A DNA stretch of 12,232 nucleotides from Planctomycetota bacterium (GTDB lineage Bacteria; Planctomycetota; Phycisphaerae; UBA1845; UTPLA1), in the NCBI GenBank assembly GCA_027295245.1, contig JAPULF010000207.1:1-12232 (forward strand), written 5' to 3'. The number at the start of each line of letters is the position of its first letter. Within the stretch, counting starts at the first letter, position 1. The notes beneath the pieces were generated by a model, which was given only the letters and a program-made list of their open reading frames with translations, was not told where the DNA came from and ran no database searches. A program made the position numbers and the translations under genes. Below, in pieces: positions 1-12,232 of this stretch.

Positions 1-237
1 TACTACCTTACGTTGTGTTTCGCGTGGCAGATCGGGCTTGTCGCTCCGCGTGCAAACATGCGCTACTATTACTTCTCAGAGAATGACTCGCTGGATATGG
101 CCTTTTTTGTTGTTTATTGGCCGATGATCCGCCTCGGCGAGGTTATTGAGACAACGCGCTGGGGGGCGAGTGGTGCCATCTATTATCGTGAGCGCAGTTT
201 TCCGACGGCGGAAGAAATGAGCAGGTTGGGGCCATAG
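1..237 (+). CDS. 3' end of an unrecognised protein (truncated by window edge)
   Basis: The reading frame is open from the first base of the window and ends at TAG 235-237, giving about 78 residues of a C-terminus whose start lies outside. The first possible in-window start codon (TTG at 13) has no reason to be the true one, because the frame continues upstream. The visible part is rich in aromatics (RYYYFSE, FFVVYWP) and has one moderately hydrophobic stretch, but I recognise no family motif. It stops 12 bases before the ATG of the redoxin gene at 250, so the two could be co-transcribed. That it is a real gene is moderately supported; its function is unknown. Confidence 0.45.
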   Translation, partial: YYLTLCFAWQIGLVAPRANMRYYYFSENDSLDMAFFVVYWPMIRLGEVIETTRWGASGAIYYRERSFPTAEEMSRLGP

Positions 238-249
238 CGCCTGATCGAT

Positions 250-1062
250 ATGGGACTTGCGGCAACTTTCGACGGACGTAAACTGGCATCCATGACGAAA
301 CCTGATGTCAATGTCGCTACACAAAAACGGGCCGCAATCCCCGCGCTAATCGGCCTGCTGCTCACGCTGGCGGGACCCGTTGCGTGGATCCTGCTCATGG
401 AGCACACTTGGCTTTGGAGAACCGGCCTGCCGGCATGGGTATCGATGGGTGCGGGCCTTTTAATCGTGCTCTGGGCCATGCGACGAGATCGGCGGTGGCG
501 CGTTCGCCTTCCGGCGCTTGCGTCGATCGGGTTCTCGCTGTTATTCGTCTACGGGTTTTATGGCGAGGCGGCCTTGCCCGCCGCCGACGCTTTCGAGCAA
601 CTTGATGTCGCCCCCGACTTCGAATTGCGCGACCACACCAAGCGCACCGTCTCGCTCGCCGACAGTCTGGACGAGGGTCGCGTGTTACTGGTCTTCTATC
701 GCGGCCACTGGTGAATGTCCTGCGTTCAGGAGCTCGTCGGGCTCGATCAGATCAGTTCAGATTTCGAAGACGCCGGTGTGAAGCTCATGGCCGTCTGCGT
801 GGACGCCCCGTCCGAATCAAGAAAAGTCGTCAAGAAGAACGACCTCAGTTTTCCCATTCTTGCCGACGAGGCGCGTGAAGCCATCAAGGCATACGGACTT
901 GTCCACGCGGGCGAAGGTCCCAAGGGCACCGATGTCGCCATTCCGGCGCACGTTTTGATCGGGCCCGACCGGAAGATTCTCTGGCGGCATGTTTCACGTC
1001 GCATCCAGGATCGGCTCTCACCCAAGGACGTGCTCGAACACGTTCGCGGCGCCGCCGGGTAA
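250..1062 (+). CDS. Membrane-anchored AhpC/TSA-family redoxin with selenocysteine at in-frame UGA (712-714)
   Basis: Read through UGA 712-714, this gives 270 residues ending at TAA 1060-1062. Three hydrophobic segments (about 29-50, 60-77, 87-106) have RRDRRWRVR between the second and third, which places the C-terminal domain outside the cytoplasm. The domain opens with APDFELRDH and reaches VLLVFYRGHW-U155-MSC158-VQEL. In the AhpC/TSA redoxin family this motif is YRGxWCxxC, so the UGA sits at the peroxidatic/redox cysteine. Downstream family features continue in the same frame (VKLMAVCVDAP, FPILAD, YGL, IPAHVLIGPDRKILWRHV). Such proteins reduce peroxides or exchange thiol/disulfide through the Cys or Sec. 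Other genes here end with UGA, so UGA is a normal stop in this genome. ATG 292 (in frame) is an alternative start; neither start has a strong Shine-Dalgarno. The main alternative is a Cys-to-stop mutation or a base error; the SECIS-like stem argues against it. Confidence 0.85.
712..714 (+). other. In-frame UGA, predicted selenocysteine codon
   Basis: The codon lies between TGG (Trp154) and ATG (Met156) in an otherwise open redoxin frame. It replaces the first cysteine of a WCxxC-type active site; the second cysteine, TGC at 721-723, is kept, giving UxxC. Conserved family sequence lies directly on both sides in one frame, which a genuine C-terminus would not show. Insertion of Sec needs selA, selB, selC and selD, none of which is in this window. 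Confidence 0.8.
720..750 (+). promoter_or_regulatory. Candidate bacterial SECIS stem-loop
   Basis: Upper stem GAGCTC (730-735) pairs with GGGCTC (739-744), six pairs including one G-U, closing a GTC loop at 736-738. Below it TC (726-727) can pair with GA (745-746) and CTG (720-722) with CAG (748-750), with small bulges. The loop begins 21 bases after the UGA and its first base is G followed by U. This matches what is known of bacterial SECIS elements: apical loop roughly 16-37 bases downstream, G in the first two loop bases. A tighter hairpin TCCTG-CGTT-CAGGA (718-731) competes with it but puts the loop only 8 bases from the UGA. The folding was done by eye. Confidence 0.45.
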
Positions 1063-1553
1063 TTGCGGGGGGGATTGGACGGTCTACGATTTCTTCTGCA
1101 CCGTCCCCAACCCGTTCATGCTTTCGGCCAACTTTGGGTCGCGGTCCGAACCTGATTCGATCCGATCCGTGGTTTGCGGCGTTGGGGAGACTTATCGGAT
1201 TCGATGGATTGAGAGCCCGCTTGGCGACTGCAGGGTCCGCATCCTATTCGGATCGCACCAGACTTCGGACGCTGGAAGATACTACCCAGTTGCGAAATTG
1301 CCCGGTGGGCAATGTTGCCCAGCGAAATGCCCTGGCGCGCTCTCAGCGGGCTTTCGATGATGTCGAACGGGCTGGCACGCGGGTTGTAGGCTATTCCTTT
1401 CCGGCGCCGTCGGTGCGGATTGGCCGGTTCTCTAAAAAAACAACTTGGAGTCGTGGCATGTTCTCTACCCTACTGGAGTACCTCGTGTTCGGTCTGGTCA
1501 GCCTCGCCGATTCGGCGCAGAGCGAGGAGTTGATCATTCAATTATGGAATCCG
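1063..1553. other. Intergenic stretch without a recognisable gene
   Basis: About 490 bases lie between the redoxin stop and the 3' end of the minus-strand gene ending at 1554. Open frames exist on the plus strand (for example 1134-1586), but their translations show no family motif, no credible start context for the long version and no hydrophobic or catalytic pattern. The region holds the interlocking TTGCCC/GGGCAA hairpins at 1297-1320, a run of seven A at 1434-1440 and the possible small ORF at 1458-1586. It separates a plus-strand gene from a convergent minus-strand pair, so 3' ends and transcription termination are expected here, but no classical terminator with a T run is visible. Confidence 0.5.
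1297..1320. repeat. Interlocking inverted repeats able to form two exclusive hairpins
   Basis: ATTGCCC (1297-1303), spacer GGT, then GGGCAAT (1307-1313) is a perfect seven-pair palindrome. A second TTGCCC follows at 1315-1320, so GGGCAA can pair either upstream or downstream, with a two-base spacer in the latter case. As RNA this would be a small switch between two hairpins; as DNA it resembles an operator with a third half site. No T run follows, so it is not a standard terminator. It lies about 235 bases after the redoxin stop. Function is unknown. Confidence 0.35.
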
Positions 1554-1586
1554 CTATACGTCGTGTTGCTCAGAATGGGGCTCTAG
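1458..1586 (+). CDS. Possible small hydrophobic protein (42 aa)
   Basis: ATG 1458 is preceded by GGAG (1447-1450) with a seven-base spacer, one of the better ribosome binding sites in the window. The frame runs to TAG 1584-1586. The product starts MFSTLLEYLVFGLVSLADS and ends with a second apolar stretch (IIQLWNPLYVVLLRMGL), so it could be a small membrane peptide. Against it: no recognised family, and its last 33 bases overlap the 3' end of the convergent gene on the minus strand. It could equally be chance. Confidence 0.22.
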   Translation: MFSTLLEYLVFGLVSLADSAQSEELIIQLWNPLYVVLLRMGL

Positions 1587-2039
1587 GCGCGACGCGCGGG
1601 AGCGGGCTTCTTGAATGGCCTCGAGCAGGCCGTCCCGGTCTTGGAGCTGGATGACGTCCGGTCCGATGTCCCATCTGCCGCCGGGCACTTCGTCGCGCGT
1701 CGTAATGTATACACATTTGGCAGAACCGACGCCGCCACCGGGAGCATAAACCCCCACGCGTCGCACGCTCGGCCACGCGATCTCGATTGCGCCGGTCAGT
1801 CCGGTCAGGCGGGCTCCCTTTTCGCCGAGCACCAATCGCCGCATATACCCCCGCGAGAATACGAACGCACTCATCACCACCACGATTCCCGCCGACCAGC
1901 GCATCCATGCGGGCATCGGGGCCCACAGCAGAAATGCCTCCAGCCCGCAGATCGGCGCCATTACAAGAAGGTACGTCGACAGCGGCGCCGAAAAATACGG
2001 CCAACTTCGCCGGTATGCCGCGTCGGCTTTGTCGTTCAC
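1554..2039 (-). CDS. Small membrane protein with two N-terminal helices and a PH-like C-terminal domain
   Basis: The gene starts with GTG (2039-2037) and ends at TAG (1556-1554), giving 161 residues. GGGGAA seven bases upstream of the GTG is a weak ribosome binding site. The N-terminus MNDKADAAYRRSWPYF is followed by two hydrophobic segments (about 21-41 and 46-62), then a basic turn (SRGYMRRLVLGEKGARL). A soluble domain of about 90 residues follows, with the pattern LTGAIEIAWPSVRRVGVY. That layout, two helices and then a beta-rich domain with a W-x-x-V strand, resembles bacterial PH-domain (bPH2/DUF304-like) membrane proteins; this is resemblance by pattern only. It lies 24 bases downstream of the ABM-family gene on the same strand, so the two probably share a transcript. 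Specific function is not known. Confidence 0.7.
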   Translation of the reverse strand: MNDKADAAYRRSWPYFSAPLSTYLLVMAPICGLEAFLLWAPMPAWMRWSAGIVVVMSAFVFSRGYMRRLVLGEKGARLTGLTGAIEIAWPSVRRVGVYAPGGGVGSAKCVYITTRDEVPGGRWDIGPDVIQLQDRDGLLEAIQEARSRASRLEPHSEQHDV

Positions 2040-2063
2040 CGGTAGGTTCCCCGGATGCTCAAA

Positions 2064-2348
2064 TCAGTGTGAGTAGGTCGTGTGCAGAGGGCGGCCGGCC
2101 AGAATCTGTTCCTTGCCCCAGTTGGCGACGTTGCGAAACGTGTCCGACGCGATAAAGGCATCGAAGGCCGTCTTGTCCGACCACACGCTCAGGATCACGT
2201 AGGTGTTGGCGTCGTCGATGTCGCGGTACATATTCGACGACGTGTGTCCCTCGATCGATGCCATCGCGTGGATCACCTTTCGAAAGGCGGACTCGAAGAT
2301 CTCTTCCTTGCCGGGCAGCACCCGATAGTTCATTCCGATCGTGACCAT
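2064..2348 (-). CDS. ABM-fold protein (antibiotic biosynthesis monooxygenase family)
   Basis: The protein has 94 residues, ATG at 2348-2346 with a strong GGAGG five bases upstream, and a TGA stop at 2066-2064. The sequence follows the dimeric ferredoxin-like ABM pattern: an opening strand IGMNYRVLPGKEEIFESAF, then the strand TYVILSVWSDKTAFDAFIAS typical of the family, then FRNVANWGKE. Members include small quinol monooxygenases and heme-degrading IsdG/HmoA enzymes. Asn7 matches the IsdG position, but the tryptophan after VW-x5-F is Phe65 here and the IsdG histidine in the helix after S-D-x-F is absent, so IsdG-type heme cleavage is not supported. It is the first gene of a minus-strand pair with the membrane protein at 1554-2039. 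Family is fairly sure, substrate unknown. Confidence 0.85.
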   Translation of the reverse strand: MVTIGMNYRVLPGKEEIFESAFRKVIHAMASIEGHTSSNMYRDIDDANTYVILSVWSDKTAFDAFIASDTFRNVANWGKEQILAGRPLHTTYSH

Positions 2349-2454
2349 GGTCGCCTCCGTTCGTTCTTGCGTCTTGTTTCCGGACCGGTTGCCCGCAAGT
2401 GTAGACGATATCCTATCGGGCGGGGGGCGTCGCGTCCCGCACGGGCGCGTTTGG

Positions 2455-2482
2455 TTGACATACGGCGTGTCGCTGCCAAAAT
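2455..2482 (+). promoter_or_regulatory. Sigma-70-type promoter of tRNA-Ser
   Basis: A perfect -35 TTGACA (2455-2460), a 16-base spacer and a -10 of CAAAAT (2477-2482, four of six matches) are supported by an extended -10 TG at 2474-2475. A transcript start near 2489 would lie about 24 bases before the mature tRNA 5' end. This is the clearest promoter in the window, and stable-RNA genes usually have such strong elements. Confidence 0.6.
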
Positions 2483-2512
2483 GCTCTCGATACGCTGGAC
2501 CCGTTGTCCCGT

Positions 2513-2599
2513 GGAGAGATGTCCGAGTGGCTTAAGGAGCACGCTTGGAAAGCGTGTGTGCGGGAGACTGCACCGGGGGTTCGAATCCCTCTCTCTCCG
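2513..2599 (+). tRNA. tRNA-Ser (anticodon GGA)
   Basis: A complete cloverleaf of 87 bases. Acceptor GGAGAGA (2513-2519) pairs with TCTCTCC (2592-2598), with discriminator G2599. Anticodon stem CACGC/GCGTG (2540-2544/2552-2556) encloses the loop TTGGAAA with anticodon GGA at 2547-2549, which reads UCC and UCU. A long variable arm between 2557 and 2574 is the class II mark of tRNA-Ser. The T arm is GGGGG-TTCGAAT-CCCTC (2575-2591, one G-U). The 3' CCA is not encoded, so it must be added by nucleotidyltransferase. Confidence 0.97.
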
Positions 2600-2650
2600 T
2601 TTTCAGGCAGCCTCATGTCCATGCGGGTCGACGTGGTCGATGAGCGGGGG

Positions 2651-2672
2651 GATCCCTACCCGGTAGGGGATC
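2651..2672 (+). terminator. Strong hairpin after tRNA-Ser, possible terminator or processing structure
   Basis: GATCCCTAC (2651-2659) pairs with GTAGGGGATC (2663-2672), nine pairs with one bulged G and a three-base loop. It begins 52 bases after the tRNA and about 130 bases before the peptidase start. The bases that follow (TTGGCTCGG) are not a T run, so intrinsic termination would be inefficient. It could instead protect or stop 3' trimming, or belong to the peptidase leader. Confidence 0.35.
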
Positions 2673-2700
2673 TTGGCTCGGGGCACCACTCGACTTGGCT

Positions 2701-2716
2701 TGGCATTGTGGTCGCA
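2701..2716 (+). promoter_or_regulatory. Weak sigma-54-like promoter candidate before the M14 gene
   Basis: TGGCAT, five bases, then TCGCA places GG (2702-2703) and GC (2714-2715) exactly ten bases apart, as in the sigma-54 consensus TGGCAC-N5-TTGCA. There are two departures from consensus. It lies about 90 bases before the peptidase ATG. No activator site was identified and a match of this quality can arise by chance. Confidence 0.2.
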
Positions 2717-2804
2717 TCATACGGCTTGTTTCCATTAACCCATGCCCTGTCGGCCGATCAACGTCGAGCGGTGGCGGGCCGCACTCGATAGGGAAGTGTC
2801 CACG

Positions 2805-5708
2805 ATGTCGGAATATTGCGATCGATTCACGGCTTGTGTTGTCCTCTTGATCTGCTGGGGGGCGGCCTGTCAGGCCCAGACTTCGAAAGGCCCGGCTCAA
2901 GCGGGCGGCAAACCGAAGATCGCCGATCCGGGCGCCGATGTCGCATCGGTAGCCTCATCGGTGCTGAGCATCGCGGGTGAAGATGGAATCAAATTCGACC
3001 CGTCGATTCCGACTCCGGCCGACGTGCTTGGCTTCGAGATGGGCTCGCGGCCGATTCGGCACATGGAAGTGAAGCTCTACCTTCGCCGTTTGGCGGAGGC
3101 GAGCGACCGCGTCGAGTTTCGAGAATACGCCCGCTCGCACGAGGGGCGCGAACTCTTCTATGTCGTCGTCAGCGATCCGGCCCATATGGGGCGTCTCGAC
3201 GAGATTCGCGCGGGTCTTGCAACGCTCGCGGATCCCCGCACGACCACGGACGCCCGGGCGGCCGAGATCATCGACAAGTCGCCGGCGGTTGCATGGATGT
3301 TGTACACGGTTCACGGCGACGAGATGTCGGGCACCGACGCGGCGGTGGTGGCGGCGTATCGGTTGGCGGCGGGCCGCGATGCGCGCACCCTCTCGTTGCT
3401 CAAGGACGTGGTGGTTTGTATTGATCCGCTGCAGAATCCGGATGGAAGAGAACGATACCTGTCCATGCTCCAGCAAGGCCGGGGCAAGGTGCCGACCGGA
3501 GACGTGCAGAGTGTTGAACACCGAACGCCCTGGCCTTGGGGACGGACCAATCATTATCTGTTCGATCTGAATCGCGACTGGAACGTGACCGTTCATCCCG
3601 AGTCGCGCGGCCGGGTGAAGGCGATCGCGGATTGGCATCCGCAGTTGTTGGTCGATGGACATGAGATGGGCGCCACCGACACGTATCTGTTCAGTCCGCC
3701 CACCGAACCGTTCAATCTGCACATTCCTCCGAACATTCTCCGATGGTTTGAGAAGTACACGTCTGACCAGGCGGACGCATTCGACCGGCACGGTTGGAGC
3801 TACTACCGCGGCGAGTGGAACGAGGCGTGGGCGATCGGTTTCGCGGACGTTTGGGCCATGCATCACGGGGCCGCCGGCATTCTCTACGAACAGTCCCGCA
3901 GCGCCGGGACGCTGGTGCGACTTCCGACCGGGCAGGATCGATTCTATCGCGAGGACGTAGCGCATCAGTTGGTCAGTACCCTGTCGAATCTGCGTACGCT
4001 GGCGGCCAACCGCAGGGCGTTTCTGTCTGATTTCTACGCCGACAAGAAGGCCGCCGTCGCCGATGTCCGCGCTACCGACGGCCGCAATCTGTTTCTATTG
4101 GTACCCGGCCGGAACCGCTCGAGGGCGGCGGAGTTTTTCGATCTGCTCGAGCGGCAGCACATCGAGGCTTACGTGGTCGGCGCCGGCGGTGCGACTGTCG
4201 AGGACGTGGTCGATCCCTGGGGCGCGGTGGAGGATCGGCGGACGTTTCCGGCCGGTACGATCGCGATTTCCACGAAGCAACCGCTCGGTCCGTTGATGCG
4301 CGGGATGCTCGAGTTTGATCCGAAGTTGACCGACGCGTTTCTGGCAATCGAGCGCCGGGAACTCGAGTTGAAGGGCGAGACGAAGCTCTACGACGTGACC
4401 GGTTGGTGCATCGCCATGGGCTATGACGTCGAGGCGTTTTGGGCTCGCGGAGACCTGAAGGCCCTCTTGTCCGACATGCGGCCGGCGAAACGCGACGCGA
4501 TCACGGGACCGAGTCGCGGCCTGGATGATGATGCGCGAGTGTACGGATACTTGATGGACGGGGACGACGATGCCGCAATCGCCCTTACGGGACGATTGCT
4601 TCAATCCGGTTGGCACATTCGTGCCGCGAAAAAGCCCTTCGTTTCTTCGGGGCGATCGTTTCCTTCGGGTACCTTCCTGATTCGGGGCCACGAAAACGCC
4701 GAGCGCATGTCGAAGTTGAAGAACGAGGTCGCCGGGTTGCCGGATGGGGTCGGCGTCGTGGCGACCACCGCGCGTAGCGGCGACGGTCCGGATCTCGGGG
4801 GCGGCGAATTTCCCTTGCTGACTGAACCGCGGATCGCACTGATCGGCAACGACCCTTTTTCGGCCTATTCCTACGGCTCGATTTGGCACCTGCTGGATGC
4901 GCGGACCGGGCTTCGCATATCCCGGCTGCAAGCGCACGCGCTGGCGAGGTACGATCTTCGTAAGTACAACGTGATCATCTTGCCGAATGCATCGAACGGC
5001 AGGTCTCTGAAGAGCGCATTGGATCAAGGTATTCGCGACCGGCTCGGGGCATGGATACGAGAGGGCGGAACGTTGGTTGCCATCGGCGGCACGGCTGCGG
5101 CGTTGGCGAACGACCCAGGGCTCGGTTCGGTCCGGCTGCGGCGGGACGTGCTGAAGGACATCGATATCTATGCGGAGGCGGTCTGGCGAGAACGTGCCGC
5201 CGACGCCCCATCGGTTGACGTCGATCAGGTCTGGGAATTCGACCCCGACAAGGGCTTCTCGACCACGCGCCCCACGAGCCAACGGATCGAGATCGACGAC
5301 GTGGATGCGCTTAAGAGACACGACGAATGGGCCCGGCGATTCATGCCGCACGGCGTCGTGCTACGGGCCGATCTTCTTCCGGAACATTGGCTCGGTCACG
5401 GGATGCGCAGTCGGGTTCCCGTCATGTACGGCTTGCGGCACGTGCTCATGGCGAAGCCGCCTGTCGAGACGGCGGCCCGATTGGCCGAGGCGGGGTCCTT
5501 GCGATTGAGCGGGCTGCTTTGGCCGGAAGCCAGGGGGCGGCTGGCCGACGGGGCGTACCTGACCCGCGAGCGGATCGATCGCGGTCAACTGATCCTCTTC
5601 GCGACCGACCCGACGTTCCGTGGCTTTTTTCGAGGCACGGATCGCCTGCTCTTGAACGCCGTTGTGCTTGGACCGGGGCTCGGGGCCTCGGTGCCGCTGC
5701 CGTGGTAA
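2805..5708 (+). CDS. Secreted M14-family zinc metallopeptidase with C-terminal amidotransferase-like domain
   Basis: I chose ATG 2805 because AGGGAAG lies eight bases upstream and the product opens with a signal peptide (RFTACVVLLICWGAACQAQ). The in-frame ATG at 2742 lacks a ribosome site and would bury the signal. The mature protein follows the large M14 pattern: TPADVLGFEMGSRPIRH, EGRELFYVVVS, zinc ligands H170 and E173 in HGDEMSG, NPDGRERY, DLNRDW around N256-R257, third zinc ligand H286 in DGHEMG, and probable catalytic Glu362 in YEQSR. M14 enzymes trim C-terminal residues or cell-wall peptides. From about residue 675 a Rossmann-like segment (RIALIGND, NVIILPNAS, GGTLVAIGG) resembles a class I glutamine amidotransferase fold without an obvious catalytic Cys. 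At 967 residues it fits the long two-domain members. Its TAA overlaps the next ATG. A Cys in GAAC also allows lipid anchoring. Confidence 0.92.
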   Translation: MSEYCDRFTACVVLLICWGAACQAQTSKGPAQAGGKPKIADPGADVASVASSVLSIAGEDGIKFDPSIPTPADVLGFEMGSRPIRHMEVKLYLRRLAEASDRVEFREYARSHEGRELFYVVVSDPAHMGRLDEIRAGLATLADPRTTTDARAAEIIDKSPAVAWMLYTVHGDEMSGTDAAVVAAYRLAAGRDARTLSLLKDVVVCIDPLQNPDGRERYLSMLQQGRGKVPTGDVQSVEHRTPWPWGRTNHYLFDLNRDWNVTVHPESRGRVKAIADWHPQLLVDGHEMGATDTYLFSPPTEPFNLHIPPNILRWFEKYTSDQADAFDRHGWSYYRGEWNEAWAIGFADVWAMHHGAAGILYEQSRSAGTLVRLPTGQDRFYREDVAHQLVSTLSNLRTLAANRRAFLSDFYADKKAAVADVRATDGRNLFLLVPGRNRSRAAEFFDLLERQHIEAYVVGAGGATVEDVVDPWGAVEDRRTFPAGTIAISTKQPLGPLMRGMLEFDPKLTDAFLAIERRELELKGETKLYDVTGWCIAMGYDVEAFWARGDLKALLSDMRPAKRDAITGPSRGLDDDARVYGYLMDGDDDAAIALTGRLLQSGWHIRAAKKPFVSSGRSFPSGTFLIRGHENAERMSKLKNEVAGLPDGVGVVATTARSGDGPDLGGGEFPLLTEPRIALIGNDPFSAYSYGSIWHLLDARTGLRISRLQAHALARYDLRKYNVIILPNASNGRSLKSALDQGIRDRLGAWIREGGTLVAIGGTAAALANDPGLGSVRLRRDVLKDIDIYAEAVWRERAADAPSVDVDQVWEFDPDKGFSTTRPTSQRIEIDDVDALKRHDEWARRFMPHGVVLRADLLPEHWLGHGMRSRVPVMYGLRHVLMAKPPVETAARLAEAGSLRLSGLLWPEARGRLADGAYLTRERIDRGQLILFATDPTFRGFFRGTDRLLLNAVVLGPGLGASVPLPW

Positions 5709-6880
5709 TGTCGAGGTGGCGCCCGATGGTCTTGGCGGAATCGGCTGACTCGCTTCTCGAATTGGCCCGGATGGTTGTCGGGCCGATTGCGATTGCGTTG
5801 GCCGTCACGCTGGTTGCCACACCGGTGGTGCGGCGGCTGGCCATTGCGTGGTCGCTCTACGACCGGCCCGACGACGGCCTGAAGCCGCATGACCGTCCGA
5901 TTCCCTATCTGGGCGGTCTTGCGATGTATCTCGGTTGGGTGGTCGCACTAATCTACGTTGCGATCTCGAAGTCCGGCCTTGCCGAGACCATTCTGTACGT
6001 TATCGCCGGCGGCACGATTCTGATGCTCACGGGCTTGGTCGACGACATTCGTCACATCCGTCCGGGACACAAGCTCTTTATTCAGGCCGTTGCCGCGGTC
6101 GTTCTGTTGTGGGGCGGTATCGGTGACGGGCTTATCCATTGTCTGTTTGCAGGGGGTGACGCGACTGGGGAGACGACGTCGGGGGCCGTGGCGCTGGCGG
6201 CCGGCGGCGTGATCATGTTTTTCATCATCGCGGGCGCCGGCAACGCAATCAACCTGATCGACGGAATGGACGGTTTGTGCGCCGGGGTCGTTGCGATTGC
6301 CGCGCTGGGGCAGGCGGTGCTTGCGGGCTGGTTGGTTGGCGGTCCGGACGGCGGGAACGCCGCCGAAGTGGCCCTCGTCTTGGCCGCGGTCCTGTTTGCG
6401 ACGTGTGCCGGGTTCTTGCGGTACAACTCCCATCCCGCGGGGATCTTCATGGGCGATTGCGGGTCGCTGCTTCTCGGATTCAGCGCAGCCGTGTTGATCA
6501 TCCTCTCCGCGCACGGCGGCTCGCTTGCCGTGACGGCGGGTTCGATCATGATCTTCGGGTTTCCGGTCTTCGATACCGCGCTGGCCATTGCCCGGCGCGG
6601 CCTCAACGGAAAGCCGCTCTTCACCGGGGATCGAAGCCATTTCTACGATCAATTGCGAGATCGCGGACTGTCGGTCGGGAAGACTGTGCTGATCTGCTAT
6701 TCGCTCGGGATTATCTTTACCTGTCTTGGAACGGCCGTGATTTATTTACGGACCGTTTACTGGATCTCGCTGTACGCCGCCGTTATTCTGCTGGCGGTCG
6801 TCGGATGCCGGTTATTCGGCCTGCTTCGCGTGGACGACTCGGCCCGACGATCCGAGGTTACCGAGAAACCACCTACGTAG
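5708..6880 (+). CDS. Polyprenyl-phosphate GlcNAc-1-phosphate transferase family (WecA/TagO/MraY type)
   Basis: ATG 5708 overlaps the preceding TAA as TAATG, implying translational coupling. The frame is open far upstream only because the M14 gene lacks stops in it. The 390-residue product is almost wholly membrane-embedded (about ten helices). Family motifs appear in order: PHDRPIP with GG (60-68), the Mg-binding D112-D113 in LVDDIRHIRPG, NAINLIDGMDGL (179-190, catalytic Asp185 and 188), FMGDCGS with D250, and the cytoplasmic loop FTGDRSHFYDQL (305-316). These enzymes move a sugar-1-phosphate from a UDP-sugar onto undecaprenyl phosphate at the inner membrane, starting O-antigen, teichoic acid or exopolysaccharide. 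The HIHH-type motif of WecA reads HFYD here, so the sugar substrate may differ. MraY is less likely, because the neighbours are not peptidoglycan cluster genes. Confidence 0.92.
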   Translation: MSRWRPMVLAESADSLLELARMVVGPIAIALAVTLVATPVVRRLAIAWSLYDRPDDGLKPHDRPIPYLGGLAMYLGWVVALIYVAISKSGLAETILYVIAGGTILMLTGLVDDIRHIRPGHKLFIQAVAAVVLLWGGIGDGLIHCLFAGGDATGETTSGAVALAAGGVIMFFIIAGAGNAINLIDGMDGLCAGVVAIAALGQAVLAGWLVGGPDGGNAAEVALVLAAVLFATCAGFLRYNSHPAGIFMGDCGSLLLGFSAAVLIILSAHGGSLAVTAGSIMIFGFPVFDTALAIARRGLNGKPLFTGDRSHFYDQLRDRGLSVGKTVLICYSLGIIFTCLGTAVIYLRTVYWISLYAAVILLAVVGCRLFGLLRVDDSARRSEVTEKPPT

Positions 6881-6977
6881 CTTTCACGAACGGGCGCGTT
6901 TTCGGACCGCCCATCAGTTTGGCGAACGAGCCATGTGTACCGAAACGCCGAACGCGCGCTGACCGATCGAACGCTGT

Positions 6978-7772
6978 ATGCACACGCTTGCCGGCATCGA
7001 CATCGAGCAGGTTGCGACTACCGCGCCGACCGTCCACGCCGACATTCGGATCATGACCCATAACATTCTGTACGGCTGGAAGTGGGGCCGGGTGCTCGAT
7101 CTGATCCGTTTCGAGCGACCCGACATCATTTGCTTGCAGGAGGTTCCCCACCGCGATCATCGCCTCGGCGGCGCTCCGCCGGAGCGGATCATCGATGACT
7201 TGCAGTTGCCCAACGCGTACGAGATGCTTTGGGGCGCGGCGCCGAACGCCATCGGGAATATGACGCTGGTTCGAGGGGGCGTCGGGCCCGGCGAGATTCT
7301 GAAGGTCCGGTGGACGCGACCTTACGGCATCGCCAACCGGGTTGAAACGTGCGGCGTTCGGTTGACGGTCGCCAACGTTCACCTGTCGCCGATGAAGGGG
7401 CCGCCGCCGTTGGCGTTTCTTCCGACCGAGATCGCAAGATTCCGAGAGGCCCGCGATTTGTCACGGCGGTTCGCGACGATCGACACGCCGGCCGTCGCGC
7501 TGGGAGACTTCAACACGTTCCATCCCGCGCCCGCGTGTTGGGTCATGAACCGGTGCTGGACCGATTGTCGTCGCGCCGCCGGCGGGCGGCACGGGGCCAC
7601 GCGGCCGACATACGGTCTGCCGTTCGTGATCGATCACATTTTCACGCGCGGCCACGGGCAAGTGCTCGATTATCGCGTCATCAAGAGCGGGGCTTCCGAT
7701 CATCGGGCCGTCATTGCCACGGTGCGTTTTTCCAGGAATTCCGGACAAGCCTCCTTTGGTTCTGTTGATTGA
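6978..7772 (+). CDS. Endonuclease/exonuclease/phosphatase (EEP) family protein
   Basis: The protein has 264 residues from ATG 6978 to TGA 7772; the upstream ribosome site is weak and Met26 (7053) would cut into the first strand, so 6978 is kept. EEP motifs are all present: RIMTHNILYG (N29), IICLQEVP (E55), NVHLSP (H135), ALGDFNTF (D177, N179), VIDHIF (D219, H220) and SDHRAVIATV (D241, H242). These residues bind metal and attack a phosphodiester. Family members cut DNA, sphingomyelin, inositol phosphates or nucleotides. No signal peptide or membrane segment is evident, so a cytoplasmic role is likely. It starts 97 bases after the transferase stop. The active site looks complete; the substrate cannot be told from sequence. 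Confidence 0.88.
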   Translation: MHTLAGIDIEQVATTAPTVHADIRIMTHNILYGWKWGRVLDLIRFERPDIICLQEVPHRDHRLGGAPPERIIDDLQLPNAYEMLWGAAPNAIGNMTLVRGGVGPGEILKVRWTRPYGIANRVETCGVRLTVANVHLSPMKGPPPLAFLPTEIARFREARDLSRRFATIDTPAVALGDFNTFHPAPACWVMNRCWTDCRRAAGGRHGATRPTYGLPFVIDHIFTRGHGQVLDYRVIKSGASDHRAVIATVRFSRNSGQASFGSVD

Positions 7773-7922
7773 GTTCTTTCGCTCGGCGGGATCCTTCCTT
7801 TCGCACTTTGCCGATTTCCGTTACTTTTCCGGTTTGTCGCACTGCCTATGGGACCGGTCGAGTTATAGCGGTGCCGGCGCGGAACGACACGTTGGGCGAA
7901 CGTAGCGCAGTCGGGCTTGACC

Positions 7923-9404
7923 ATGTCTGGAAACGGCAACAATCATTCGAGTTCGCATCGCATTCGGCTCTCGCCGTTCGACTATCACTTTCTGGTGACA
8001 CAGCGCGGCGAGGGGCGGCGCGACGGTTGTTCGTTCACATGCTACTACGTGCTCGATTTGGACGGCCATCCCGACGGCGCCCGCCTGCGAGCGTCGCTTC
8101 GTCGGGCAATGGCGACCTATCCGGCCGTTTCCGGCGGGGTGAAGTACTCCTTGTCGCGCACTCGGGCGTTTTGGGAGCACAACTCGAAAACGGACTACGC
8201 CGATCGTGCATATCGTTATCACGATTTGCGAGATCGGTGCGACTGGACGGCCCTTGTCGAGGCCGCGATTCGAAAGTCGATCAACACCGAATGGGATCTC
8301 ACGCGGCCGCCGCTCGTCAGGCTCGTTCATTTCGACGGTCCCGACGGACAGTCGCGCGTCTGTTTGCTTTGGCCGCACGCCCTGATGGACGCCGAGGGGG
8401 CCCACTGGTTTCTGCGCGAGTTGTCGCGGCTTGCAGAGGATCGCGCGACGGATCCGCCGCCGGGTCTCCTGGACACTCGCGAGCCGCCCGACCCGCTCGC
8501 GGGCCTCTCGTTGCGGAAACGCTGGCGGCTCTTTCGGGAGGGACTCGACGAACAATCGCAATTGAGCAAAATGAAGACGAGCCATCTCGCGACGGCGTCG
8601 CCCGGCGACGGCGCCGCTCATCGCTTTGTGGTTCGGCTCGGATCCTCGGAGCAGTTCCGACGAATTCACGCAAACGCGCGGCATCTCATGCCCAACGGGC
8701 GCGGTCTCTTTGCGACCGCGGCGGCCTTGAATCCGATCGTGCGATTCCTGGCCGCGTGCGTGTTGCGCGCCTTGCACCGCCAATACACGCGTCACGGTAT
8801 CGGGACGGATGTATACCGAATCGCATACCCCATGCGGGTCAGCACGGTCGCGACCCCGAGGCCCTTGACCGGTAATTTCATCAGCGTTCCGACTTTGTGC
8901 GCTTCGGCTTTCGAAATGAACGACATGCGAATGCACGTCGAGCAGGTTCATCGTCAAGTCACCAATTTCCGCCGGCATCGCGCCGACGTCAAGCAATGGG
9001 CCCTGTTGTGGATGGCCGGCCAGTTGCAGCCGGGTCTCTATCGCCGCCTGATGTGCTCGGCGATCGGCAACACGCCCATTCACTCCGGATTCTCCTATTT
9101 CGACGTCGGCTCCGACCCTCGGTGGACGACCCTGGCCGGAGCGACGATTCGCCGCGTGTGGTTGGGCGGCGTGGTCAGCAACCCGCCGGGCTGGAATGCC
9201 GTTTTCTGTCGGTACCGGGACTGTATGACATTCAACCTCTCGTGGATTGACGGCGTGGAAATGGAGTCGCTCGCCAACGAGTATGCCGACCTGATCACGG
9301 ACGAGGTGACGCACAATTGGCTGCCCCCTTCGCCTCAAATCAACGGTCCGGAACCCGACGAGGAGCACGCGGCCGCGTGCCGAACCGCGTCTTTCGGGGA
9401 ATAA
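7923..9404 (+). CDS. Condensation-fold (HxxxD) acyltransferase, WS/DGAT- or PapA-like
   Basis: About 493 residues from ATG 7923 (TTG 7917 is an in-frame alternative; neither has a good ribosome site) to TAA 9404. The opening RIRLSPFDYHFLVT and the strand TCYYVLDLDGHPDGARLRAS followed by a helix are typical of the CoA-dependent acyltransferase superfamily. The catalytic motif is WPHALMDAEG, with H152 and D156 as HxxxD. Later LTGNFISVPT and NPPGWNAVFC occupy the places of the second-half motifs. Such enzymes transfer acyl groups to alcohols or amines (wax esters, triacylglycerol, polyketide-derived lipids) or act as NRPS condensation domains. Here it stands alone with no carrier protein, adenylation or ketosynthase gene nearby, which favours lipid or small-molecule acylation. 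It has no signal peptide; the acyl acceptor is unknown. Confidence 0.78.
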   Translation: MSGNGNNHSSSHRIRLSPFDYHFLVTQRGEGRRDGCSFTCYYVLDLDGHPDGARLRASLRRAMATYPAVSGGVKYSLSRTRAFWEHNSKTDYADRAYRYHDLRDRCDWTALVEAAIRKSINTEWDLTRPPLVRLVHFDGPDGQSRVCLLWPHALMDAEGAHWFLRELSRLAEDRATDPPPGLLDTREPPDPLAGLSLRKRWRLFREGLDEQSQLSKMKTSHLATASPGDGAAHRFVVRLGSSEQFRRIHANARHLMPNGRGLFATAAALNPIVRFLAACVLRALHRQYTRHGIGTDVYRIAYPMRVSTVATPRPLTGNFISVPTLCASAFEMNDMRMHVEQVHRQVTNFRRHRADVKQWALLWMAGQLQPGLYRRLMCSAIGNTPIHSGFSYFDVGSDPRWTTLAGATIRRVWLGGVVSNPPGWNAVFCRYRDCMTFNLSWIDGVEMESLANEYADLITDEVTHNWLPPSPQINGPEPDEEHAAACRTASFGE

Positions 9405-9484
9405 AACCGCCGTCCATCCGTAAAGACTCGTGAACCTCGACTGCCCCCTGGCGATCGGGTGGATGCGAGGTTAAGACCACGGGC

Positions 9485-9988
9485 GTGGAAGCGGAATTTG
9501 ATTTGGACGCTTTGGCGGAGAGATTTCAGAGAAAGGGATTTGCGCTTGCGATGCACCTGTTGGGCAATGCCGATGACGCCGCCGACGCGGTGCAGGAAGG
9601 CTTGAGTGTTCTGTGGTCGAGGCGAAAGAATCTTCGGCCGGGTCAGGATCCGGCGGCGTGGTTTTTCAGGGTGCTGCGAAACCACTGCATCGACCAGCTT
9701 CGCAAGCGCCGACATCGCGGGGGCGGGTCCGTCGAAGTGGAGGACCTGCCGGCCGCGCCGGCAGACCGGCCGGATATCGGCGCGGAACGGCGAGAGTTCA
9801 ACGTCCGGCTCTTTCAAGAGTTGGAAAGGCTGGACTTGCCTCACCGGGAGATTCTCTTGCTGCGGGATTTTCAGGATCTCTCGTATTCGCAGATCGCGGC
9901 CGTCCTGGGAATCAGCCAGGGGACAGTGATGTCGCGGTTGCACCGTGCCCGAATGTTGCTTCGCGAGCGATTGAAGGATTTTCTGTAG
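9485..9988 (+). CDS. ECF-type RNA polymerase sigma factor
   Basis: The protein has 167 residues with a GTG start at 9485; region 2 begins within the first residues, so a later start would remove it. Sigma region 2 covers about 10-77, including LLGNADDAADAVQEGLSVLW and the core-binding/-10 segment PAAWFFRVLRNHCIDQLRKRRHR. After an acidic linker, region 4 (about 113-165) carries LPHREILLLRDFQDLSYSQI and a helix-turn-helix GISQGTVMSRLHRARMLLRERL. ECF factors steer RNA polymerase to stress or envelope-response promoters. The gene for a zinc-finger membrane anti-sigma starts three bases after its stop, which is the standard partner layout. No autoregulatory promoter is recognisable in the 80 bases upstream. 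Confidence 0.95.
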   Translation: MEAEFDLDALAERFQRKGFALAMHLLGNADDAADAVQEGLSVLWSRRKNLRPGQDPAAWFFRVLRNHCIDQLRKRRHRGGGSVEVEDLPAAPADRPDIGAERREFNVRLFQELERLDLPHREILLLRDFQDLSYSQIAAVLGISQGTVMSRLHRARMLLRERLKDFL

Positions 9989-9991
9989 CCG

Positions 9992-10429
9992 ATGGATCAT
10001 TGCCGCACGATCGAGGAAATGCTGAGCGCTTACCTGGACGGTGAGCTGACGCAGCAGGATCGCCAACGGGTGGAAGTCCACGCCGATTCGTGCGGGGCGT
10101 GCGGAAAGACGCTCGCCGAATTAAAGAGAGTCAGTGCCGGGATCGGCGGGTTGCACACGCCCGAGCCGACCCCCGAACAGTGGAGCAGAATGATGCCGAT
10201 TGTCGTTACCAAGACGAGTCGCGGCCTTGGCTGGCTGCTGGCGCTCATCGGAGGCGCCATCCTCGCCGGCTACGCGATTTACGAATTCGCAACCGACGAC
10301 ACCGTCGACGCACTGGTCAAGATTGCGGTGGCCGGGGTGGTCGGCGGGTCTGCACTGTTGCTTCTCTCGGTGATCCTGGACCGACTTCGGGCCAGAAAGA
10401 CCGACCGGTATAAGGATGTCGAATTATGA
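9992..10429 (+). CDS. Membrane zinc-finger anti-sigma factor (ZAS/zf-HC2)
   Basis: The protein has 145 residues. The N-terminal 40 residues form the ZAS-type zinc domain: MDHC with Cys4, then H30-x3-C34-x2-C37 in VHADSCGACGKTL, with LSAYLDGELT between as in other zf-HC2 anti-sigmas. Two hydrophobic segments (about 79-97 and 109-128) anchor it in the inner membrane, with a short acidic loop between and a basic C-terminus (RLRARKTDRYKDVEL). It is expected to hold the adjacent ECF sigma factor inactive until an envelope or redox signal arrives; the CxxC zinc site could itself sense oxidation. It lies three bases behind the sigma gene and overlaps the YbjQ-family gene by ATGA. The two-helix hairpin is less common than the single helix of many anti-sigmas. 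Confidence 0.9.
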   Translation: MDHCRTIEEMLSAYLDGELTQQDRQRVEVHADSCGACGKTLAELKRVSAGIGGLHTPEPTPEQWSRMMPIVVTKTSRGLGWLLALIGGAILAGYAIYEFATDDTVDALVKIAVAGVVGGSALLLLSVILDRLRARKTDRYKDVEL

Positions 10430-10758
10430 ACCGAGTGATTGTCGTGACCGCGTCGGGCGTAACGGGGAGAACCGTGGCGCGGACTGTCGGGCTTGTTCGG
10501 GGCAATACCATCCGGGCCCGCCACATAGGCAAGGACATTCTCGCCCTCCTGCGCCACATGGTCGGCGGCGAAATTGCCGAGTACACCAAACTGATGGCCG
10601 AATCCCGCGAACAGGCCATAGATCGCATGGTGGAAGAGGCCGAGGACCTGGGGGCCAACGCCATTATCAATTGTCGGTTTACGACGTCGGTCGTTATGGG
10701 CGGCGCCGCCGAGTTGTTGGCGTACGGCACGGCCGTGATCCTCGAGCCGGAGACCTGA
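10426..10758 (+). CDS. YbjQ/UPF0145 family protein
   Basis: The protein has 110 residues, ATG overlapping the anti-sigma stop as ATGA (10426-10429). It matches the UPF0145 family along its whole length: an opening strand VIVVTASGVTGRTVARTVGLVRGNTIRARHIG as a family hallmark, then GGEIAEYTKLMAESREQAIDRMVEEA, then LGANAIINCRF and ELLAYGTAVILEP. Members such as E. coli YbjQ form pentamers and have been called heavy-metal-binding, but no physiological role is settled. The tail GTAVILEP is as expected. Translational coupling to a sigma/anti-sigma pair suggests it serves the same stress response, perhaps as modulator; that is inference. A cytoplasmic location is likely, as no signal or membrane segment is visible. 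Confidence 0.92.
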   Translation: MNRVIVVTASGVTGRTVARTVGLVRGNTIRARHIGKDILALLRHMVGGEIAEYTKLMAESREQAIDRMVEEAEDLGANAIINCRFTTSVVMGGAAELLAYGTAVILEPET

Positions 10759-10804
10759 GGAAGAATCCCGAGGGCCGTCTTACACCCGTGAGAACCCGGC
10801 GCCA

Positions 10805-10830
10805 CTTTGACTTTCGAGACAGCGTCAAGG
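10805..10830 (+). promoter_or_regulatory. Inverted repeat in the leader of the hydrolase gene
   Basis: CTTTGAC (10805-10811) pairs with GTCAAGG (10824-10830), seven pairs including one G-U, around a twelve-base loop. It lies 32 bases before the hydrolase ATG. It could be a repressor-type operator (TTGAC-N12-GTCAA) or an mRNA stem; it also contains TTGACT, a good -35, but no matching -10 follows. There is no T run, so it is not a clear terminator for the upstream operon. Confidence 0.25.
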
Positions 10831-10862
10831 TCTTGTTCCCCACCGCGCCGAAAGGAATTGTG

Positions 10863-12194
10863 ATGAAGCCTTGTGATCGAGTCGTACTTACTTTGTCTTT
10901 GCTCGCGCTCATTTCATCGGCCGGCGTTGCAACGGCGCAGCAACCGCACGCCCGGGAAATCGTCAAGGTCCGGGCCCTGTTTGATTTGATTCGTACCGGG
11001 AAATACGATGCGTTTCTCTCGGCCTGCGACGCCAGAGTCAAGGAAGGGCTTCCCGCGCCGAAACTGAAGGAAGTCTGGGAGGGACTGACCAAGTCACTGG
11101 GTCCGTACGAACGCGAACTCAGCGCCAGCGCGAAGCCGGTGGGGGAACATCTGACCGTCGATCTGATCTGCAAATTCAAGTCCGGGCCGCTCAAGGCCCG
11201 AATCTCGATTGACAAGGACGGCAAGGTGGCGGGGCTATTATTCTTGCCCGCCAACGAATTAGTGGAATATGCCGCGCCGGACTACGTGGATTCGTCGCGT
11301 TTCCGGGAGGAAGAGGTCAGCGTTACATCCGGAGAATTCCAATTGCCGGGGACGCTGACGGTACCCGTCGGCGACGGTCCATTTCCGGCGGTTGCCTTGG
11401 TGCACGGCAGCGGTCCGCACGACCGCGATGAGACGGTCTTCGGCCGAAAGCCGTTCAAGGACATTGCGGGAGGCCTGGCCACGCTCGGCGTCGCCGTCCT
11501 TCGATATGAAAAGCGCACTTACAAATACGGCGCATCGATGGATCCTGAAGCGATCACGATCGATTCGGAAGTTGCGGACGACGCGATTGCCGCGGTCCGA
11601 TTGCTCATCGGCCACGATGCGATTCGATCCGACCGTGTTTTCCTCGTGGGGCACAGTCTTGGCGCCGGTGCCGCGCCGTACATCGCCACGAAGGAGTCGG
11701 GCATCGCGGGCGTCATCATGCTCGCGGCGCCGGCCCGACCCGTATATGAACTGGTCGATGACCAGATCCCGTATCTGGCTGCGATCGACGGAACCGTGGA
11801 CGACGCCGAGCAGGCCAATATCGACGAGACGAGGGCGGCGGTCGACAAGTTGCGCAAGGGTACCTGGAAGCCGGGGGATATGCTCTTGGGCGCCCCGGCC
11901 AAGTATTGGGCGAGCCTGGACAAGATGGCCCCTGTCAAATACGCGCTGAAGTATGAGAAACCCATGTTGATCATTCACGGCGGCCGCGATTACCAGGTTT
12001 CCAAGAAGGACTTCGCGATCTGGAAGAAAGAGCTTGGCGGTCGAAAGAACGTCACTCTCAAGAAGTTCGGCAAGCTGGATCACCTCTTGACCGCCGGCAA
12101 GGGGAAATCCACGCCGGCGCAGTATCAGACACCGGGTCACGTGGATCGGCGCCTGATAGAGAGAACGGCCAAGTGGATTCATGCCCGCGGATGA
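10863..12194 (+). CDS. Secreted DUF3887-alpha/beta hydrolase fusion protein
   Basis: ATG 10863 has AAAGGA six bases upstream and opens a clear signal peptide (MKPCDRVVLTLSLLALISSAGVATAQ), so the longer open frame upstream is not used. The product is 443 residues. Residues about 30-135 (VRALFDLIRTGKYDAFLSACDARVK and following strands) match the DUF3887 pattern, often found ahead of hydrolases. The rest is an alpha/beta hydrolase: oxyanion strand ALVHGSGPHDRDET, nucleophile S265 in VGHSLGAG, acid D376 in HGGRDYQV and base H407 in LDHLL. This is an intact Ser-Asp-His triad. Relatives act as esterases or serine peptidases outside the cytoplasm. It is 104 bases after the YbjQ gene and has its own ribosome site, so it may be separately transcribed. 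The substrate is unknown. Confidence 0.92.
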   Translation: MKPCDRVVLTLSLLALISSAGVATAQQPHAREIVKVRALFDLIRTGKYDAFLSACDARVKEGLPAPKLKEVWEGLTKSLGPYERELSASAKPVGEHLTVDLICKFKSGPLKARISIDKDGKVAGLLFLPANELVEYAAPDYVDSSRFREEEVSVTSGEFQLPGTLTVPVGDGPFPAVALVHGSGPHDRDETVFGRKPFKDIAGGLATLGVAVLRYEKRTYKYGASMDPEAITIDSEVADDAIAAVRLLIGHDAIRSDRVFLVGHSLGAGAAPYIATKESGIAGVIMLAAPARPVYELVDDQIPYLAAIDGTVDDAEQANIDETRAAVDKLRKGTWKPGDMLLGAPAKYWASLDKMAPVKYALKYEKPMLIIHGGRDYQVSKKDFAIWKKELGGRKNVTLKKFGKLDHLLTAGKGKSTPAQYQTPGHVDRRLIERTAKWIHARG

Positions 12195-12232
12195 CCGAGT
12201 GGCCGGCGATGCCGACCGTTCACCGTTGACCC

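Follow-up and report, generated by a model that had tools for sequence, protein, structure and literature searches.

In described selenoproteins related to peroxiredoxins (Prx), the placement of selenocysteine (Sec, U) differs: Sec-containing Prx proteins carry TxxU, and Prx-like proteins carry UxxC (PMC1088965, PMC13188914). Prx-like UxxC/UxxU selenoproteins have a PF00578 domain, occur as Sec/Cys pairs and lie far from true peroxiredoxins (PMC13188914 Table 1, PMC1088965). Selenoproteins have been reported in two planctomycetes (PMC4807772), and a Prx-like selenoprotein is mentioned for Asgard archaea (PMC11291895). Here we analyze a gene at positions 250-1,062 (forward strand) of a 12,232-nucleotide stretch of contig JAPULF010000207.1 (positions 1-12,232) from a Planctomycetota bacterium; the whole stretch is hereafter the window. 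The gene shares PF00578, UxxC and Sec/Cys pairing with the Prx-like selenoproteins, and appears to differ from them in a conserved N-terminal part with three predicted transmembrane (TM) segments and in an RGxWUxxC site.

We put the probability at about 85% that this is one selenoprotein gene coding for a membrane-anchored thiol-disulfide oxidoreductase; that it is a real selenoprotein gene, whatever its chemistry, appears close to certain. In the proposed mechanism, the UGA at 712-714 would be decoded as Sec with the aid of a bacterial Sec insertion sequence (bSECIS) hairpin just downstream. Three membrane helices at the N-terminus of the product would be followed by a Prx-like thioredoxin-fold domain that carries the active site RGxW-Sec-x-x-Cys and faces the periplasm.

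A reading frame with a conserved internal UGA

The frame at 250-1,062 is interrupted only by the TGA at 712-714 and terminates at TAA 1,060-1,062. As the initial annotation had described, a single frame is open on either side of this UGA; translated across it, the product is 270 residues long, the UGA standing for Sec155, and the join reads FYRGHW-U-MSC, leaving the second Cys as UxxC, as in 25/25 homologues. Translation may start at ATG 292, which we favor over ATG 250 because most homologues lack an obvious equivalent of the initial 14 residues (alignment judged by eye). Against PF00578 the read-through protein scores 94 bits, in a match that covers residues 119-244, compared with 56.8 bits for the C-terminal piece on its own and no Pfam family at E 0.001 for the N-terminal piece, and the domain therefore spans the UGA. 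Together with structure matches, Pfam delimits an AhpC-TSA/Redoxin thioredoxin-fold domain at residues 119-253 (604-1,008, forward strand).

We followed the gene through the window's own genome and those of 40 relatives (41 in all), taking as strong homologues those with E below 1e-30. There are 25 of these, in the own genome and 24 relatives, covering 17/17 genomes of the same family and 8/24 from other families of the order. In each of them the frame is interrupted once only, by a TGA that always falls in one and the same alignment column. The surrounding motif YRGxWUxxCxxE is invariant across the aligned homologues, as are Arg151, Sec155, Cys158 and Pro232.

Outside this set, the UGA column also pairs with Cys. 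Three database proteins with Cys at this position match at full length and share the membrane part: P0002 (43%), with WCPFC, and P0003 and P0004, with WCPTC; full-length database proteins among the matches listed are Cys forms only. In a sample of the phylum, matches that reach E 1e-25 occur in 78/392 genomes. TGA is present in 56 of the resulting 86 rows and absent from 30, many rows below the top 30 being the redoxin part only; among the top 30, the rows for which sequences were read, 27 have TGA and three have Cys (L188, L189, L201). The alignment proposed in the initial annotation thus places both UGA and Cys in this column. A search of genome contigs with a Cys-only pattern, which returns Cys relatives only, gave a best match of 38% over residues 92-262, and a scan of viral contigs for a UGA motif returned nothing.

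On a 62-row tree that comprises 51 Sec and 11 Cys forms, the Sec/Cys label requires five changes, which suggests that the two residues have been exchanged for each other several times. Two sister pairs within one family (f61), L186/L189 and L187/L188, each join a Sec copy to a Cys copy. The window copy clusters with L005, which comes from a different family of the order (support 95/90), and the sequences of the window's own family are split over separate clades, a scatter that appears to reflect old duplication or transfer. Weaker redoxin-like matches with a single in-frame TGA also occur in relatives (for example G034:C72:76493-76798, G016:C109:846-1160 and G022:C1:2491270-2491551), and these may be further selenoproteins.

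Purifying selection acts on the frame after the UGA: for the two pairs of relatives that lie closest together, the ratio of nonsynonymous to synonymous substitution rates (dN/dS) downstream of it is 0.142 and 0.070. For more distant pairs, among them those with the window copy, either dS is saturated and the ratio lies at 0.18-0.42, or no value was obtained.

Were the UGA a true stop, the locus would be a pseudogene, a sequencing error or a pair of small proteins. Databases do carry small proteins that correspond to the part after the UGA, and our searches did not find selA, selB or tRNA-Sec in the metagenome-assembled genome (MAG) to which the window belongs, which is 75.5% complete. Yet the UGA occupies one column in 25/25 divergent genomes, dN/dS after it is 0.07-0.14 in the closest pairs, and the domain core spans a position that is Cys in homologues, leaving a true stop extremely unlikely. 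Slightly less remote, though still very unlikely, is insertion of an ordinary amino acid, through reassignment to Trp or plain readthrough; the inserted residue is indeed not visible from sequence alone. Here the column pairs with Cys, not Trp, tRNA-Sec and selA are present in relatives, and UGA is an ordinary stop in the window because it closes five of the ten other gene ends checked. The codon is therefore not globally reassigned, as had been argued initially from at least six window genes ending in UGA; the five ends listed for that argument are real, and the count of six was not reached among the ten checked. We therefore rejected a pseudogene, a sequencing error and a reassigned code alike.

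The split of this gene by annotation can be seen in databases. With the downstream half as query, we retrieved 23 database proteins of 90-116 aa, in a search that admits only lengths near the query's, so that longer proteins could not appear; the 14 that were read all begin after the UGA. One match is a 'Phycisphaerales bacterium' protein, at 56%. Annotation thus divides the gene in two, and the expectation that gene callers would split it and lose the active site agrees with these relatives, C-terminal fragments that start after the active-site residue.

Selenocysteine machinery and a bSECIS-like hairpin

Both selA and tRNA-Sec exceed their cut-offs in every one of the 24 relatives that carry the gene (tRNA-Sec scores 64.9-73.7 bits, cut-off 47); selB is over cut-off in 23 and selD in 22, with selB below it in G022 and selD below it in G010 and G022. 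The selenoprotein gene occurs in 0/4 relatives without selA over cut-off (hypergeometric p 0.02), and 12 relatives have selA without the gene.

The window's own genome is a MAG of 3.13 Mb in 653 contigs. The initial annotation had proposed a search for selA, selB, selC and selD in this genome, and the search succeeded for selD (L229:507-1430, G000:C561). This selD itself carries an in-frame TGA, in CAG-U-AGK, making it a second selenoprotein gene there; the TGA lies at UxxK, the known Sec site of SelD (PMC13188914). For selA, selB and tRNA-Sec, the incomplete assembly gave nothing over cut-off, and these gaps may be missing sequence. The best tRNA-Sec candidate (40.7 bits) was rejected as tRNA-Ser(GCT). 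Serine tRNAs cross-match the tRNA-Sec model, and the window has a tRNA-Ser(GGA) gene at 2,512-2,600 that scores 34.3 bits against it. This tRNA was the sole Rfam match across the window at gathering scores.

Described bSECIS elements have a stem of 4-16 bp, a loop of 3-9 nt and a G in the first two loop positions, and lie 16-37 nt from the UGA (PMC13188914). Within these limits, the window copy is predicted to fold into a bSECIS-like hairpin at 730-744 (forward strand), GAGCUC-GUC-GGGCUC, with a 6-bp stem and the loop GUC 21 nt after the UGA. A stem of at least 6 bp within the same limits is found in 24/25 homologues, the remaining one having 5 bp, compared with 24% of the 5028 positions that served as controls within these genes; 71% of control positions reach 4 bp, and the hairpin criterion is therefore weak for any single copy. 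Among further forms, 25/26 with Sec and 1/3 with Cys have a stem of at least 6 bp. In the Cys copies L188 and L189, the longest hairpin within bSECIS limits is 3 bp.

Codon usage within the hairpin is skewed as well. Its two Leu codons are CTC in 21/25 and 23/25 copies, compared with 171/759 Leu codons elsewhere in these genes, a contrast between related rather than independent sequences and not a probability. The hairpin takes two registers, which were picked by hand: register A, CUCCGA-GGUC-UCGGAG, which the majority of copies use, and register B. For register A, the covariation score and the number of paired cells were reached by 0/500 shuffles.

Several results count against the favored explanation. 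In register A, both-sided changes occur in only 2/6 pairs, matched by 222/500 shuffles; pair types are no more numerous than expected (487/500 shuffles); and the register slid by -2 columns scores 0.182, compared with 0.200. Register B, the one used by the window, is without any both-sided change. RNAalifold found no common structure in the plain alignment, and a 54-nt fold of the window copy is no more stable than its shuffles (z -0.67), single-sequence folds of seven copies ranging from -1.73 to 0.58. To these are added the failure to find selA, selB over its cut-off and tRNA-Sec in the own assembly, noted above, and a dN/dS after the UGA of 0.27-0.42, at saturated dS, for pairs that include the window copy.

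The reading of the UGA as Sec, put forward in the initial annotation, is nonetheless strongly supported by its presence in 25/25 homologues, the Cys pairing, the hairpin and the machinery in relatives, from which we infer that it is decoded in this strain as well.

Active site, predicted membrane anchoring and class

The initial annotation had placed Sec at the peroxidatic position of an AhpC/TSA protein, and our alignments do not bear this out. Aligned to BCP/PrxQ and AhpE, the UGA occupies the Thr/Ser column of Pxxx(T/S)xxC. The column of the peroxidatic Cys is taken by Cys158, the second redox residue of UxxC (721-723, forward strand; 25/25). All 25 homologues have RxxxUxxC in place of the Prx motif; in all of them, the Prx Pro is replaced by Arg and the catalytic Arg by Pro. 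The latter residue, Pro232 (943-945, forward strand), lies at a position that is Arg in peroxiredoxins and cis-Pro in thioredoxins (PMC2757866). Peroxiredoxins have Pxxx(T/S)xxC together with an absolutely conserved active-site Arg (PMC5302317), and the predicted protein has neither the motif nor the Arg.

These features bear on whether the protein could be a true Prx-type selenoperoxidase, its Sec attacking peroxide from the peroxidatic position. The nearest solved structures are peroxidases, which tells against the proposed thiol-disulfide oxidoreductase, and some peroxidase activity may be possible. A true selenoperoxidase is still unlikely, as Sec falls on the Thr/Ser, Pro has become Arg and the catalytic Arg has become Pro in 25/25, and UxxC is the arrangement of the Prx-like group, Sec-Prx proteins being TxxU.

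Membrane anchoring is predicted for the N-terminal part. Hydropathy marks three hydrophobic segments in 25/25 homologues; in the window protein these are residues 32-50 (343-399), 59-77 (424-480) and 85-103 (502-558), all on the forward strand, and the structural model places helices at 22-48, 60-79 and 83-105, respectively. The loop between the second and third segments has 2-6 Lys and Arg residues, and that between the first and second 0-2, across the 25 homologues. By the positive-inside rule, this bias suggests that the N-terminus is inside and the redoxin domain outside, probably in the periplasm.

The loss of the Prx residues and the three TM segments in 25/25 lead us to favor a membrane-anchored thiol-disulfide oxidoreductase. 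Sec155 would serve as the attacking selenol and Cys158 as the resolving residue, and Se-S/dithiol equivalents would be exchanged with other proteins or with small disulfides, in the manner of ResA/TlpA-type oxidoreductases. A DsbD/CcdA-type membrane reductase would be the usual supplier. One result that does not help this proposal is that no neighboring gene is common to more than 4/21 loci (20 of the 24 relatives and the window; frames of at least 100 aa), and the genomic context therefore names no partner.

ResA, TlpA and DsbE of the cytochrome c maturation type are anchored to the membrane and act outside the cytoplasm. The W-C-x-x-C of ResA aligns with W-U-x-x-C here, and the window protein has Pro at the cis-Pro position. 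It differs from this group in being nearer BCP/PrxQ in sequence and fold, in its three TM helices and in its Sec, and it scores 54 bits against the ResA model NF002854, short of the cut-off of 170. From BCP/PrxQ and AhpE it differs in turn by the replacement of the Prx Pro, Thr/Ser and Arg. Scores of the window protein stay below the cut-off for every NCBIfam model; the best match is to SelL-related redox proteins (NF040769), at 66.1 bits against a cut-off of 120, and covers residues 120-220, the redoxin part only.

With PF00578 and UxxC rather than TxxU, the predicted protein belongs to the known Prx-like UxxC class. Within that class, it possibly represents a new membrane-anchored subfamily, given the NCBIfam scores below cut-off; the listed reference protein of the class is WP_010940744.1. 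In the literature available to us, which left most subscription papers outside, we found no description of this selenoprotein in planctomycetes or of a membrane-anchored form. The chances are about even for a broader view, in which the gene defines a lineage-conserved inner-membrane subfamily with three TM segments and an outward-facing RGxWUxxC, combining a Prx-type body with a thioredoxin-type site, keeping Sec in 25/25 copies seen in this order of phycisphaera-like bacteria and acting as a periplasmic redox hub that annotation mis-splits.

Surrounding genes and implications

Elsewhere in the window, positions 2,742-5,708 encode an M14 peptidase (70% to a 'Phycisphaerae bacterium' protein), and 7,917-9,404 hold a 495-aa open frame with no Pfam match at E 0.001. 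The peptidase match and the 56% 'Phycisphaerales bacterium' match above make a phycisphaeral planctomycete the likely source. An extracytoplasmic function (ECF) sigma factor gene and, directly after it, a zf-HC2 anti-sigma-like gene occupy 9,485-10,429 and form a probable sigma/anti-sigma pair; a YbjQ_1 family gene follows at 10,426-10,758, with a 4-base overlap between it and the end of the zf-HC2 gene.

On the interpretation we favor, a redox enzyme of all 17 sampled genomes of this family lies hidden among database proteins as C-terminal fragments. The gene would extend the known selenoproteins by a Prx-like one that is anchored in the membrane, and provides a profile for annotating such genes. 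Its mixed site, with thioredoxin-type residues and Sec on a Prx-type fold, may inform the relationship between peroxiredoxins and thioredoxins. Furthermore, it suggests that these little-studied bacteria carry out some selenium-dependent redox reactions outside the cytoplasm.
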